Made by a program: the position numbers and the translations under genes. The notes under the pieces are model-generated. The model had not been told where the DNA came from. It saw only the letters and a program-made list of their open reading frames with translations, and made no database searches. Below are positions 42,988 to 51,184 of a stretch of 64,000 nucleotides of DNA, piece by piece (within the stretch, counting starts at the first letter, position 1; every line of letters begins with the position of its first letter). The stretch is from positions 1,174,501 to 1,238,500 of the forward strand of contig NZ_CP050313.1 of NCBI RefSeq assembly GCF_011765625.1. Direction: 5' to 3'. This DNA is from Shewanella aestuarii (lineage in GTDB: Bacteria > Pseudomonadota > Gammaproteobacteria > Enterobacterales > Shewanellaceae).

Positions 42988-43137
42988 GTCATAAAATTCA
43001 AAAGTTAACATGAACTCAGTTAGGGGTAAATTTTGCTTGGTAGGAGATTTGTTAATAATTGAAATATTTCTGAAACATTCTGAAGGCAAACTTCCGCTCG
43101 TTCCGAAATAACAAACTCATGACGAAATAGCATGTCC

Positions 43138-43156
43138 AAAGGATGAAATGATGAAC
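43138..43156 (+). promoter_or_regulatory. Predicted small-RNA pairing site on the porin mRNA
   Basis: AGGATG and ATGATGAAC, split by two bulged A, are perfectly complementary to GTTCATCAT-CATCCT of the minus-strand small RNA unit at 49094-49214 (15 pairs). The site covers the Shine-Dalgarno and both start codons, where pairing would block translation. Prediction by eye. Confidence 0.55.
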
Positions 43157-44086
43157 TTATTTACTCAAACCCTAATTGCATCAGCAATTGCTGCTACAAC
43201 TGTTTCAAGTGCTTATGCTGCTGATCCACTTCAAGTTTACGGTAAATTAAACATAACAGCTCAATCTAACGATGTTCAAGGTGAGACGGAAACGTCTATT
43301 CAAAGTAATGCTTCTCGCTTTGGTGTTAAAGGAGACTTTGATTTAGGTAATGATTTACAAGCTTTTTACACGATTGAGTATGAAGTAGATACCGGCGATG
43401 ATGCAAAAGAAAATTTTAAAGCCCGTAATCAATTTGTAGGCTTAAAAGGTAACTTTGGTTCTGTATCTGTAGGTCGTAATGATACGGTCTTAAAAGTATC
43501 TCAAGGTAAAGTTGATCAATTTGGTGATCTTGCTGGTGATTTAAAAAATGTGTTTGTTGGTGATAACCGTATGGCACAAACCGCAGCTTATATGACACCT
43601 ATGTTTGCTGACTTCCAATTTGGTGTGACTTATGTTGCGGATGCAGATAGCGATCAAAAAGCGAAATCTGATGGTGACAGTGGTGTGAGCGTTGCCGCTA
43701 TGTACGGTGATGCAAAATTAAAAAATACTCCAGTTTATGCTGCTGTAGCTTATGACTCTAAAGTGAAAGGTTATGACACCTTGCGCGCCACTATCCAAGG
43801 CAAAGTGGTTGGTTTAGTGTTAGGTGGTATGTATCAACAACAAGAGAAGTTAGATTCTAATGTGACTGATAATGGCTATTTATTTAGCGCAGCGTATGAC
43901 ATTGAAGATACAACTTTAAAAGCGCAGTACCAAGATATGGAAAACAAGGGTGATTCATGGTCTGTTGGGGTTGATTACAAGCTAGCCAAGCCAACTAAAG
44001 TATTTGCTTTTTATACCAGCAATACATTTGAGTCAATCGATACTGATGATAGCTATGTTGGTATTGGTTTAGAGCACAAGTTTTAA
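43148..44086 (+). CDS. Gram-negative trimeric porin
   Basis: An outer-membrane general porin of 312 residues. The signal peptide is cleaved after SSAYA, the mature protein starts ADPLQVYGKLN (the usual first beta strand), alternating amphipathic strands run throughout, and the last residue is Phe, as required for BamA recognition. Two ATG codons are in tandem at 43148 and 43151; with AAAGGA at 43138-43143 the second is the better spaced. Its position before phoB-phoR-pstS suggests a phosphate-starvation porin. The start region is complementary to the small RNAs at 48560-49214. A terminator follows. Confidence 0.9.
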   Translation: MMNLFTQTLIASAIAATTVSSAYAADPLQVYGKLNITAQSNDVQGETETSIQSNASRFGVKGDFDLGNDLQAFYTIEYEVDTGDDAKENFKARNQFVGLKGNFGSVSVGRNDTVLKVSQGKVDQFGDLAGDLKNVFVGDNRMAQTAAYMTPMFADFQFGVTYVADADSDQKAKSDGDSGVSVAAMYGDAKLKNTPVYAAVAYDSKVKGYDTLRATIQGKVVGLVLGGMYQQQEKLDSNVTDNGYLFSAAYDIEDTTLKAQYQDMENKGDSWSVGVDYKLAKPTKVFAFYTSNTFESIDTDDSYVGIGLEHKF

Positions 44087-47637: not shown

Positions 47638-48465
47638 CTAAATTCTTGCCGTTTTACGGGCTTTGATTGAATAGACCAAGGGGACTTGCTGCCCTTTATA
47701 TCGCATTTGATAGCCATGGTCAGCGACAAACTCTAAGCCATCAAAACAATGGTATGGGCTATAAGGGTATTCAAAGAAACTTTCTATGCTTAGCCCCTCA
47801 TTAACTAAGGCATTGATGACTTCGCTGATGGAGTGAGGCCAAGTTACCATTGTTGATTTTGACCCGTCACAATTTTCGGTATAAGTGCCTTCTTCTTCAA
47901 TATCTGGTTCTCCAGTAGGAAAATAGGAGTAACCATTTAGTAAATCGTTAAAAGGATGAAACTCCACTAGGTGAAATTCACCACCCACTTTTAGCGCATT
48001 GGAAATTGTTTTGGCCCATGCAGATAAATCAGGTAGCCAGCAAAGTACACCATATGAAGTAAACACAATGTCGAATTGTTTCGTATTGTTAACACCAAAT
48101 TGGTAAACATCGCTTTCAATAAAGTTTGCTTTTAAGCCCAGAGACTCTTTGAGTATATTGGCTTGCTCGATGGCGCTGGATGATAAGTCTACACCGACAA
48201 CCTCTGCCCCTAACCTAGACCATGACAGACTATCTAAGCCAAAATGGCATTGAAGGTGTAACAGAGATTTACCGTTAACATTGCCAAGTTGCTGCAATTC
48301 GATAGGGTTAAGTGACGTTTTGCCATTTTTGAACCCATCGACATCATAGAATTTTGAAGCTAGATGAATTCGGGTTCGATTATCCCATCCTAATTTATTA
48401 ATGCTCAAATAATCCATTTTAAAATCCATTGACTGATACATTGACTGATAAATAGTACGCGACAT
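47638..48465 (-). CDS. Class I SAM-dependent methyltransferase
   Basis: The SAM-binding motif I is LLHLQCHFGLDSLSWSRLGA with the acidic residue at the end of strand 2 in VVGVDLSS. FDIVFTSYGVLCWLPDL and LKVGGEFHLVEFHPF follow as motifs II-III. The substrate is unknown. The start is uncertain: the frame opens at 48465, but MDYLSINKLGW at 48417 is the natural domain start, and the intervening codons are a short duplication (MYQSMYQSM). It lies between pstS and the small-RNA array, reading in the same direction as the small RNAs. Confidence 0.82.
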   Translation of the reverse strand: MSRTIYQSMYQSMDFKMDYLSINKLGWDNRTRIHLASKFYDVDGFKNGKTSLNPIELQQLGNVNGKSLLHLQCHFGLDSLSWSRLGAEVVGVDLSSSAIEQANILKESLGLKANFIESDVYQFGVNNTKQFDIVFTSYGVLCWLPDLSAWAKTISNALKVGGEFHLVEFHPFNDLLNGYSYFPTGEPDIEEEGTYTENCDGSKSTMVTWPHSISEVINALVNEGLSIESFFEYPYSPYHCFDGLEFVADHGYQMRYKGQQVPLVYSIKARKTARI

Positions 48466-48559
48466 TTAAGTCTAGTTAGACAGAATATTAGTATCTATGC
48501 TCAATAACATACCAGATTGCAATATGGGAAGTGAGTACAAGTTAAGTCAAATTTCAAAC

Positions 48560-48679
48560 AAAAAAAAGCAACCTAGTTTAGGTTGCTGACACTGCAATTC
48601 GCAATTCTTAAATGATAGCCATAAGGCGTATCGAATGGGGGATGATGATGAACAAAAAACTCAATAAAGATTCGGTTCA
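48560..48679 (-). ncRNA. Candidate sigma-E-dependent small RNA, unit 1
   Basis: On the minus strand a sigma-E-like promoter (48685-48712) is followed by about 120 transcribed bases ending in a perfect 8-base stem GCAACCTA/TAGGTTGC with loop AAC and eight T (48560-48586). The core shared with units 2 and 3 contains GAGTTTTTTGTTCATCATCA and then TCCCCC. The core resembles the target-pairing region of enterobacterial MicA, which is also sigma-E dependent. The opposite strand looks like a tiny gene only because the RNA is complementary to a translation start. The transcription start is estimated, not measured. Confidence 0.7.
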
Positions 48680-48684
48680 CAGTA

Positions 48685-48712
48685 TATGACTGACACTTTT
48701 TAGATAAGTTCC
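48685..48712 (-). promoter_or_regulatory. Sigma-E-type promoter of small RNA unit 1
   Basis: Minus strand: GGAACTT (-35, 48706-48712), 16 bases, TCATA (-10, 48685-48689). The enterobacterial RpoE consensus is GGAACTT-N16-TCNAA-like. Confidence 0.65.
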
Positions 48713-48852
48713 CAAGCAATTTAAAAATAGTCAAAATAATTTATTTTATGGATTATTAGGCGTTCAGCCAGAGTGTAATACGGCAAATCACAATGATGGC
48801 GTTAACATCTCGCCTGATTGCTAATTTACTGATTATCTATGAAGAAAGCGGT

Positions 48853-48971
48853 AAAAAAAAGCAACCTGATTAGAGGTTGCTATCACTGCAATATGCAATT
48901 TTGTTGATAGGATAAAAATACTATCTGAATGGGGATGATGATGAACAAAAAACTCAATAAAGATTCGGTTC
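48853..48971 (-). ncRNA. Candidate sigma-E-dependent small RNA, unit 2
   Basis: Same organisation as unit 1: promoter at 48978-49005, about 119 bases, and a terminator with stem GCAACCT/AGGTTGC and eight T (48853-48880). It shares the core GTTCATCATCATCCCC and, with unit 3, an internal stretch read on the plus strand as TTGTTGATAGGA and ACTATCTGAA. Units 2 and 3 are closer to each other than to unit 1, pointing to successive duplication. Confidence 0.7.
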
Positions 48972-48977
48972 ATATAC

Positions 48978-49005
48978 TAAGACTTAGCGTTGTTGAATTA
49001 GTTCC
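48978..49005 (-). promoter_or_regulatory. Sigma-E-type promoter of small RNA unit 2
   Basis: Minus strand: GGAACTA (48999-49005), 16 bases, TCTTA (48978-48982). Confidence 0.6.
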
Positions 49006-49093
49006 CAAAAAATTAAAAATATTTCAGCCTCATGATGAGTAATTCAATCGATGCGAAATTGAGTTATTAAAATGCAAACGAATAACCATAGGC

Positions 49094-49214
49094 AAAAAAA
49101 AAGCAACCTGGTTAGAGGTTGCTATCACTGCAATATGCAATTTGTTGATAGGACATAAACACTATCTGAAAGGGAGGATGATGATGAACAAAAAACTCAA
49201 TAAAGATTCGGTTC
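49094..49214 (-). ncRNA. Candidate sigma-E-dependent small RNA, unit 3
   Basis: Third unit: promoter at 49221-49248, about 121 bases, terminator with stem GCAACCT/AGGTTGC and nine T (49094-49122). The core GTTCATCATCATCCTCCC gives the best match to the porin start region: nine pairs with ATGATGAAC and six with AGGATG, interrupted by two bulged A on the mRNA. Three tandem near-copies with separate promoters and terminators argue for selection on RNA dose or on several targets. Confidence 0.72.
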
Positions 49215-49220
49215 ATATAC

Positions 49221-49248
49221 TCAGACGCAGCAATTCTCGATAAGTTCA
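49221..49248 (-). promoter_or_regulatory. Sigma-E-type promoter of small RNA unit 3
   Basis: Minus strand: TGAACTT (49242-49248), 16 bases, TCTGA (49221-49225), the closest of the three to the RpoE consensus at its -10. Confidence 0.65.
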
Positions 49249-49372
49249 AAAATAAATAAAAAAATTTTAAGTTTTTATGGAAACTCGCCAAATTCAGCAA
49301 ATTTAGCCCTAAAATGTTATGGTTTGTTCCCTACATTGCAAAATTATATGGCTGATATAAAGCGAGGTTATC

Positions 49373-51184
49373 GTGTTACGATCAACATCATCATGGGATA
49401 ACACCCATGACTACCACTCAAGTGCCAATACTGACGACATAAGAGTCAATCATTTCAAACTCAATTTATTCGTCGACTTTGATCAACAATGTTTATCGGG
49501 TGAAGTGACGTTACAATTCTTTCGTGTTCGCTCAGATCAAAGCAAGATTAATGAGGGCGTGTCGAAGCTTATTGTTGATTGTCGTGATTTAATCATTTTT
49601 GGGGTAACGGACGTCCAAGGCAATCCGCTCAAATCTGAAGTCATCGCCGTAAATGATACTTTAGGGCAAAAGCTGGTGATTGCAATTGATGATCAAATCA
49701 ATGCTGTGACCATCCAATATAAAACGTCAGTGCATGCCCAAGGGTTGCAATGGCTAACGCCACAGCAAACATTAGGTAAGCAGCAGCCATACTTGTTCAG
49801 TCAATCACAGCCAATTAATGCCCGTAGTTGGATCCCGCTGCAAGATACCCCAAAAGCGCGAGTCACATTTGATGCTCAGATAACCGTGACCAATGGCCTG
49901 CGTGCGGTAATGAGTGCGCCAAACAACCCACAAATGCCTGTTGATGGCATGTTTGTCTTTAACATGGATAAACCTATCCCAACCCATTTATTAGCACTTG
50001 CAGTGGGGGATTTAGCCTTTGAAGCAACGGGACCTAGAAGTGGTATTTATACTGAGCCTGGCATGTTAGCCAAAGCGGTTAAAGAGTTTGAAGATACCGA
50101 AGAAATGATTTTAGTGGCCGAATCATTATTAGGGCCTTACTTATGGGGACGTTATGACATGATAGTGTTGCCACCTAGCTTTCCATTTGGCGGTATGGAA
50201 AATCCCATGTTAGCCTTTATGACTCCAACTTTAATAGCGGGTGACAAAAGCTTGGTGTCGACTGTCGCACATGAACTAGCACATTCATGGACGGGTAACC
50301 TAGTCAGTAATGCCACATGGCGAGATTTATGGCTTAACGAAGGCTTTACCACCTATTTTACCAATCGTATTGTTGAAGCCGTTTACGGAAAAGAGCAAGC
50401 CGATATAGAGTGGGTGAATGAATACAATCGCTTACAAGCTGAAATGCAGTCCACGGATTTAGTCGACCAAACTTTGCCTGCAAATGTGCAAACCCGTGAT
50501 CCAAACTTGGCATTTAATCGATTCACTTATGATAAAGCCTCGATGTTTGTTCATGAGTTAGAGCTTCGTCTTGGTCGTGAAGTCTTTGATCAATTCTTAT
50601 TTAACTATGTGAAACACTTTGCCTTTAAAGCCATCACCACAGAAACCTTTTTGGCTTACATGCAGCAAACCTTGTTAACACAACACAGTGACAAGTTATC
50701 AGAAGCAGAGCTTATGGAGTGGCTATATGGCCAAGGGTTACCACAATGGTTTACACCGCCAAGCTCTAATAGCCTAGATAAAGTTGAGTTGGCCTTATCG
50801 GCTTTTGAACAAGGGTGCCAGGCAAATGAGCTGAATGTCAGCGATTGGAGTGTTCATGATTGGCAGTACTTTTTGAATAAATTGCCACAAGTCATCAAAC
50901 AAGCGCAATTAATGGATTTAGATGAGCATTTCCAATTAAGCCAAAGTCAAAATGCTGAAATTGCTTGCGATTGGTTCAGAGTCGCAGTGCGAAATCACTA
51001 CGATCCTGTGTTACCCAACTTAAGTGAGTTTTTAACAACAGTAGGCCGAACTAAATTTGTCAAACCACTTTACACCGAGTTGTTATTAGCAGGGTACTCC
51101 CAAGAGGTTAGGGATATATATTGCGCTGCGCGTGAAGGCTATCACCCGTCTTTACAGGTTCAGTTAGATAAAATATTGAATTAG
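49373..51184 (+). CDS. M1 family aminopeptidase, leukotriene-A4-hydrolase type
   Basis: A zinc aminopeptidase of about 603 residues that releases N-terminal residues from peptides. The exopeptidase motif FGGMEN is at 272-277, the zinc site HELAHSW at 300-306 with the third ligand E323 in LWLNEGFTTYF, and the C-terminal leukotriene A4 hydrolase-like helical domain follows. No signal peptide is seen, so it is probably cytoplasmic. The GTG at 49373 has GCGAGG about 8 bases upstream. The neighbouring POT transporter suggests a peptide-use context. Repeat copy C begins 6 bases after the stop. Confidence 0.9.
   Translation: MLRSTSSWDNTHDYHSSANTDDIRVNHFKLNLFVDFDQQCLSGEVTLQFFRVRSDQSKINEGVSKLIVDCRDLIIFGVTDVQGNPLKSEVIAVNDTLGQKLVIAIDDQINAVTIQYKTSVHAQGLQWLTPQQTLGKQQPYLFSQSQPINARSWIPLQDTPKARVTFDAQITVTNGLRAVMSAPNNPQMPVDGMFVFNMDKPIPTHLLALAVGDLAFEATGPRSGIYTEPGMLAKAVKEFEDTEEMILVAESLLGPYLWGRYDMIVLPPSFPFGGMENPMLAFMTPTLIAGDKSLVSTVAHELAHSWTGNLVSNATWRDLWLNEGFTTYFTNRIVEAVYGKEQADIEWVNEYNRLQAEMQSTDLVDQTLPANVQTRDPNLAFNRFTYDKASMFVHELELRLGREVFDQFLFNYVKHFAFKAITTETFLAYMQQTLLTQHSDKLSEAELMEWLYGQGLPQWFTPPSSNSLDKVELALSAFEQGCQANELNVSDWSVHDWQYFLNKLPQVIKQAQLMDLDEHFQLSQSQNAEIACDWFRVAVRNHYDPVLPNLSEFLTTVGRTKFVKPLYTELLLAGYSQEVRDIYCAAREGYHPSLQVQLDKILN

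Follow-up and report, generated by a model that had tools for sequence, protein, structure and literature searches.

The window analysed here, a 64,000-nucleotide stretch of the Shewanella aestuarii genome, carries three repeated units on its minus strand, at 49248-49094 (unit 1), 49005-48853 (unit 2) and 48712-48560 (unit 3). The array is flanked by a methyltransferase gene (47638-48465) and, on the plus strand, by an M1 peptidase gene (49373-51184), as assigned with Pfam. Each unit combines a sigma-E-type promoter with a terminator and would be transcribed into an RNA of about 120 nt. The three similar minus-strand units proposed in an earlier sequence-only reading of this DNA are confirmed. 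That reading had put the start-to-start distances of the promoters at 291 and 243; the second is correct, and the first measures 293. Pairwise identities of the full units are 88, 78 and 78%, whereas the DNA between and beside them is 49-57% identical in gapped global alignments, which for AT-rich DNA is about no similarity. Promoter spacing and terminators have thus been kept while the intervening DNA drifted, as had been claimed. The core GTTCATCATCATCC is exact in all three units, at 49176-49189, 48933-48946 and 48640-48653, and lies within an invariant 40-nt block, TGAACCGAATCTTTATTGAGTTTTTTGTTCATCATCATCC, that is likewise identical in the three; this shared block and the target complementarity described below mark the core as the proposed mRNA-pairing region.

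On the minus strand of each unit, GAACTT or GAACTA is followed by 16 bases and TCNNA; the 16 bases are counted from the seventh −35 base and correspond to a spacer of 17 counted after GAACT. Recognised by motif and spacing, the promoters read TGAACTT-16-TCTGA in unit 1 (49221-49248, with a spacing shared with relatives), GGAACTA-16-TCTTA in unit 2 (48978-49005) and GGAACTT-16-TCATA in unit 3 (48685-48712), and predict transcript starts near 49214, 48971 and 48679. The pattern has four matches in the 128,000 strand positions of the window (both strands), three of which are the units. Markov shuffles of an 800-nt stretch gave three matches in none of 20,000 cases and two matches in 2. Across 20 relatives' loci, chosen because they hold the family, the strict pattern occurs 86 times at a spacer of 17, while counts at the other spacers between 11 and 23 range from 1 to 19. 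Since the sequences behind our covariance model had been picked by the promoter pattern, we also checked promoters in other rows. A looser pattern was present in 14 of 16 rows read without promoter selection, where L133 and L135 are places used before and L028 and L034 near-copies of such places; among the 12 new rows it was present in ten and missing from L138 and L322. By comparison, the looser pattern occurs in 344 of 20,000 random 160-nt stretches of the window. The sequence-only reading had staked its claim on conservation of the −35 and −10 elements in relatives, and in relatives these elements are conserved.

Each unit ends in AGCAACCT..AGGTTGCT followed by eight or nine T. The resulting intrinsic terminators lie at 49102-49123 (unit 1, with a T9 tail to 49094), 48860-48881 (unit 2) and 48567-48587 (unit 3), and are the only three terminator-like sites that a scan of 48000-49800 returned, against 1.1 ± 1.2 in shuffles. 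Over 54 distinct family sequences the terminator stem is 100% paired and five of its six pairs have changed on both sides, a result reached by none of 500 shuffles, in an alignment that had been fitted to that stem. These compensatory changes agree with the earlier claim that the terminators are conserved. The three predicted sRNAs (49094-49215, 48853-48972 and 48560-48679) also fold better than shuffled sequences, with z scores of −2.7, −3.5 and −3.7, respectively. In unit 1 the predicted layout is a 5' hairpin, an exposed core, two small hairpins and the terminator.

In the predicted folds the 5' hairpin is closed by UGAAC/GUUCA and the rest of the core is single-stranded. The conserved 5' end, UGAAC, thereby pairs with GUUCA of the core itself (49215-49176 and its counterparts), and some of the core may stay inaccessible until the fold is opened by a target or by Hfq. 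The 5' stem never showed a two-sided change and is hence without covariation support; RNAalifold, run on 23 sequences, returned this stem and the terminator only, with a two-sided change in none of 12 pairs. The second hairpin varies from ATTGC/GCAAT to ATTCC/GGAAT. For ten hand-picked 15-mers all cells of this hairpin were paired (100%; 6 of 500 shuffles as high), and one pair showed a two-sided change, which 187 of 500 shuffles also reached; its covariation is modest evidence.

The units are members of a genuine RNA family. Searched at the DNA level, 129 Shewanella genomes showed arrays of up to four copies. The covariance search envisaged in the sequence-only reading was carried out with a model, R1, that covers only core to terminator and was built from 38 sequences; R1 scores the window's units at 89.3, 97 and 88.1 bits and matches 89 of the 129 genomes with 1-4 copies each (four copies in 4 genomes, three in 3 including S. 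aestuarii, two in 2 and one in 80). The triple array as such did not stand as a fixed arrangement, being one state of a family that varies in copy number. Among 197 Enterobacterales genomes R1 matched ten, all of them Shewanella, and three listed Shewanella were without a match; the filters used for many-genome searches lose weak matches, so that absence outside the genus is provisional. A pattern scan of contigs gave 20 stretches in other bacteria, which we take to be chance. In a tree of 46 units, in which many forks are weak, units 1 and 2 of the window are joined (97/82), unit 3 groups with the single, long-branched copy of another genome (99/97), and in three genomes with four copies the last copies form one group (100/100). 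These groupings indicate that some duplications are common to several species and others recent. Nothing in the window reached an Rfam 15 gathering score, and no family member did so in 20 relatives' loci; in the twenty further loci scanned, six tRNAs, all in the locus L318, were the only matches.

Gene order around the array is shared with relatives. In eight of the 20 relatives' loci (L064-L070, L076) it runs phoB-phoR-pstS, units, M1 peptidase, class C, class B, glutathione peroxidase, where classes B and C are related RNAs described below; the remaining loci show part of that order, L072 being without the peptidase and L073 and L074 without units like those of the window. The M1 peptidase, glutathione peroxidase and PstS-like binding protein were checked by Pfam, while the names phoB, phoR and pstS are what we take these genes to be from their sequences. 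In the window the gene at 47638-48465, which encodes a SAM-dependent methyltransferase, stands between pstS and the array; the relatives' array loci L058-L063 have no methyltransferase gene at that place.

Class C carries the same core followed by CTAGCGC and a GGCAACC..GGTTGCC-like terminator, in 1-5 copies per locus. A promoter lies up to 350 nt upstream in 34 of the 38 class C rows listed, a list in which two units are entered twice and one row is class-B-like; all four rows without a promoter are in L074. Upstream of the core, several class C units in L065, L066, L068 and L070 carry a further motif resembling CTTCTCCCCCGGAG, which may be an additional pairing site, and in the rows listed the promoters of units of this type stand 117-199 nt before the core. 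The pattern of core plus CTAGCGC matches 108 of 129 Shewanella genomes, with four matches in all for a reversed control pattern; some matches are chance, for example L315, which has no promoter. One genome, G042, has seven such matches about 230 nt apart, and another, G093, possibly eight copies, counted by the pattern alone. The S. aestuarii genome gave no match to this pattern. Class B is a single gene whose promoter stands 53-67 nt before the core in eight rows. The S. aestuarii class B gene, with promoter TGAACTTTTATACAGATGATGACTCAAA, lies 43 kb from the array, near C1:1267205 and beside a glutathione-peroxidase-like gene. Its 3-kb locus (L107/L318) also holds six tRNA genes, all on the same strand and four of them spaced 195 nt apart. 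Other short direct repeats occur near both sRNA loci, at about 48450-48425 of the window and about 1345-1190 of L107 (TATCAGTCAATG twice; GTAGAATNACNACTTATC twice).

Given the sequence-only suggestion that the core resembles the seed region of MicA, we fetched the Escherichia coli micA sequence for comparison. MicA aligns with the units as TTTGTT-ATCATCATCC, and in unit 2 the alignment runs on to CCC..ATTCAGA (TTTGTT-ATCATCATCCC..ATTCAGA). Alignment scores for units 1, 2 and 3 are 27, 33 and 29, equalled by 4, 0 and 1 of 2000 dinucleotide shuffles of MicA, respectively, and for class B by 2 of 2000; the resemblance of the core to the MicA seed is thus significant. It is also wider than first noted, extending to the promoter-proximal sequence, the trinucleotide repeat of the core and the target families. 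Unit 1 and micA, both with a sigma-E-type promoter, share an identical 15-mer, GTCTGAGTATATGAA, running from the −10 element into the transcript, and the commonest sequence after the −10 is NTATATGAA, found in 30 of 44 promoter-bearing units, three of which are the window's. Both RNAs have a TTTGTT(C)ATCATCATCC core with a trinucleotide repeat and a U-tract terminator, and the predicted outer-membrane targets of the units include Tsx and OmpW. The number of ATC repeats differs between units; variation of repeats in the mRNA-binding region of MicA is noted in the excerpted text of a review (PMC4618604), which gives the range of MicA as Enterobacteriaceae plus a partial match in Lactobacillus.

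There are clear differences from MicA as well. Its 5' pairing region, TTTGTTATCATCATCCC, is found in the units too, but with one inserted base and at a greater distance from the 5' end. The units are about 120 nt long against 73 for MicA, differ in their hairpins, one of which is an additional 5' hairpin that engages GUUCA of the core, and occur in 1-4 tandem copies. They stand beside methyltransferase/pstS and M1 peptidase genes, in contrast to the order luxS-micA-gshA in E. coli. The Rfam MicA model, RF00078, matched none of 60 Shewanella genomes at an E value of 0.001 with a positive E. coli control, had no match in the window at gathering score, and was absent from the 13 Rfam matches obtained at E values up to 10 in 48500-49300. 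Because the Rfam model is unmatched, the genomic place differs and the RNA is longer, we use for the units the term MicA-like, which is neutral on descent.

Candidate targets were sought by searching the S. aestuarii genome for the complement of the core with at most two mismatches. Of the 77 sites found, three belong to the array. From the remaining 74 we read 68, among them the class B gene itself, and excluded six that lie on two small contigs. Sites at believable translation starts belong to genes for a porin, a Tsx-like channel (PF03502), a lipoprotein, an exported protein, a CymA-like protein (assigned by Pfam family) and two proteins that we take to be CcoN-like and CtaD-like. Most other sites are inside genes or antisense to them. 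As this list was itself selected by complementarity, outer-membrane protein genes were chosen independently by Pfam (PF13505 and PF00593; 38 rows, 36 used, with one start beyond the fetched DNA and one duplicate) and compared with 308 background genes from twenty 20-kb stretches (314 minus six in the outer-membrane set). In this test, which covered a single genome and used a simple rule to pick the starts, the duplex energy of the core is lower at the 36 outer-membrane starts, by a median of 2.6 kcal/mol (shift −2.6; p = 0.0014), a shift matched by none of 150 mononucleotide-shuffled cores. The class B core gave p = 0.03, and neither the 5' block (p = 0.62) nor the 3' part (p = 0.85) gave a shift. 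The extreme tail is weaker, with 5 of 36 starts passing the 5% line and 11 of 150 decoys doing as well. Exported proteins as a whole showed no shift (p = 0.42); among the top 30 starts seven are exported, where decoys average 3.4 and 6 of 200 are as high.

At individual starts, the predicted duplex reaches −26.2 kcal/mol at Tsx (equalled by none of 500 mononucleotide decoys; rank 1-2 of 200 dinucleotide decoys), −25.0 kcal/mol at the best porin site (0 of 500 and 0 of 200), −21.1 kcal/mol at a TonB-dependent receptor and −19.9 kcal/mol at OmpW (PF03922), the last two each equalled by 1 of 500 mononucleotide decoys. The window holds a further candidate site, AAGGATGAAATGATGAAC, at 43123-43165 on the plus strand, over the translation start of a porin gene (43148-44086; PF13609). 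Its duplex of −19.1 kcal/mol was equalled by none of 500 mononucleotide decoys, 7 of 200 dinucleotide decoys and one of 314 background starts. This porin gene lies five kb from the array, before the phoB/phoR/pstS-like genes. A Tsx gene was found in 7 of 45 genomes, and the 12 bases before its start codon are identical in all seven loci while the DNA further upstream varies. R1 matches six of these genomes; in the seventh, G048, only the pattern of core plus CTAGCGC was matched. Tsx and OmpW are listed as MicA targets, with repression of tsx by MicA in E. coli, in excerpts of two papers (PMC4618604, PMC3551931). Several candidates were dropped, CcoN and CtaD among them. The porin with the −25.0 kcal/mol duplex was dropped as a genus-wide target, since against 200 dinucleotide decoys it ranks 0 in S. 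aestuarii but 6-173 in the 29 other loci (L198 being read two codons inside the gene), and CymA ranks 11-105 of 200 in 30 loci, not above decoys (one of them, L233, not being read at the start codon).

A 62-codon open frame overlaps unit 1, the methyltransferase gene follows unit 3 on the same strand, and Rfam gives weak matches to a Phe leader (RF01859; 26.1 and 24.0 bits against a cut-off of 55), all of which would suit a cis-acting leader or attenuator, or a small protein gene (MNRIF...HHHP), in place of a trans-acting RNA. We think this very unlikely, given that the frame from ATGAACCGA stops after four or five codons in L009:187, L010:1971, L011:1710 and L012:734 and differs in length among other relatives, that, wherever relatives' loci were read, the array faces the 3' end of an oppositely oriented pstS, and that units 1 and 2 each have another unit downstream. 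Still harder to credit is that the units are tandem repeats without function, the remains of a recent duplication; some genomes do have recent duplications, but promoter, core and terminator have outlasted the drift of the DNA between them, and the terminator has undergone compensatory change. The units could also be real sRNAs driven mainly by housekeeping sigma factors or by another ECF sigma factor, for sigma-E is named here from motif evidence and a TATACT stretch lies near the −10 of unit 3. This, too, is improbable, since a sigma-70 scan found nothing above chance (6 sites against 7.2 expected) and none at the predicted starts, and the spacing of the sigma-E-type promoter is fixed across the three RNA classes.

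How the units came by their likeness to MicA is a closer question. If, as we tentatively infer, they share common descent with MicA, the locus could represent a diverged MicA branch in Shewanella, with three classes built on one core (a form of about 120 nt, a shorter single-copy form and a longer form of about 190-260 nt) and arrays, of up to seven copies in one genome and possibly eight in another, that would set the strength of outer-membrane shutdown in each species; this is plausible at a little under even odds. It is also possible, though rather more doubtful, that a Shewanella-specific sigma-E family of independent origin and the same function converged on a MicA-like core, as might happen if the starts of outer-membrane protein genes favour complementarity to a GGAUGAUGA-like sequence. 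The failure of the Rfam MicA model, the unlike location and length, and the precedent of Vibrio VrrA, a functional analogue that, according to an excerpt of its description (PMC2628432), is no homologue of MicA, speak for convergence. Against it, the similarity spans both the −10/start region (the 15-mer being identical in unit 1 only, with NTATATGAA in many relatives) and the core, in the same order, includes a trinucleotide repeat, and reaches ATTCAGA in unit 2 and the single-copy class B.

Other known systems resemble the array in part. RybB is also a sigma-E RNA acting on outer-membrane proteins, and it has no similarity to the units above shuffles (868-934 of 2000 equal; 1215 for class B). 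PrrF, Qrr and OmrA/B are multicopy sibling sRNAs, as are LhrC1-5 of Listeria according to the excerpted source, and the units, being several paralogous copies with the same pairing region, belong with them by that measure. To our knowledge none of these is a sigma-E RNA, and unlike them the Shewanella RNAs vary in copy number and, in several species, bring together at a single locus three classes built on one core. VrrA and MicV of Vibrio cholerae, which are like the units by description only, are sigma-E RNAs that repress OmpA/OmpT and have a seed in common, as excerpts of two papers report (PMC2628432, PMC7602753). Outside the Enterobacteriaceae, CT_532 of Bordetella pertussis has been likened to MicA, with a proposed action on outer-membrane mRNAs; the excerpted report (PMC12235514) calls it a MicA homolog, about 60% identical to the final 46 nt of MicA, lacking the ompA-pairing sequence and apparently RpoE-independent. 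Compared by that description, the Shewanella units share the MicA core and promoter region instead.

Together these computational results, from the reality of the family and the conservation of its promoters and terminators to its structure, its MicA-like core and its target complementarity, support a reading of the locus as a tandemly amplified family of MicA-like, trans-acting sigma-E sRNAs, each with its own promoter and terminator, that would repress outer-membrane proteins. We assign this reading a probability of about 0.82, in which transcription, dependence on sigma-E and Hfq, repression and dosage are what we infer. Under envelope stress, sigma-E would transcribe all three genes into RNAs of about 120 nt each. 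The 5' hairpin (UGAAC/GUUCA) and the downstream hairpins would leave the middle of the core, UCAUCAUCCYC, single-stranded, and the exposed core would pair with the Shine-Dalgarno/start region of outer-membrane protein mRNAs, the best candidates being those of the Tsx-like channel, OmpW, porins and a TonB-dependent receptor. With the help of Hfq this pairing would block translation and so lower outer-membrane protein synthesis, as MicA does in E. coli. Dependence on sigma-E and Hfq is carried over by analogy with MicA; a terminator with eight or nine U is compatible with Hfq dependence, no more. As the copies share one core, dosage should be the main way in which the array acts.

Most work on sigma-E RNAs has been done in enterobacteria and vibrios. 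Among the literature matches listed, which include few subscription papers, there is no Shewanella sigma-E RNA family or array; 193 trans sRNA candidates are reported for S. piezotolerans in the excerpted text of one study (PMC5471319). A sigma-E RNA directed against outer-membrane proteins is an already known kind, as are multicopy siblings. What is new, as far as we have seen, is that tandem amplification varies, that three classes share a single core and that the family is widespread in the genus. An Rfam-based annotation would miss the family, given that Rfam 15 has no gathering-score match to it in the loci scanned. The natural series of copy numbers, with drifting spacers and a fixed core, makes an experiment on sRNA gene dosage possible and offers a way to study how a seed stays fixed across paralogues. 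The array would be a dosage-based variant, and an unusual one, of a control RNA familiar from gut bacteria. A genus-wide family of this kind would show how the control of envelope stress is wired in Shewanella, which serves as a model for extracellular electron transfer across the outer membrane.
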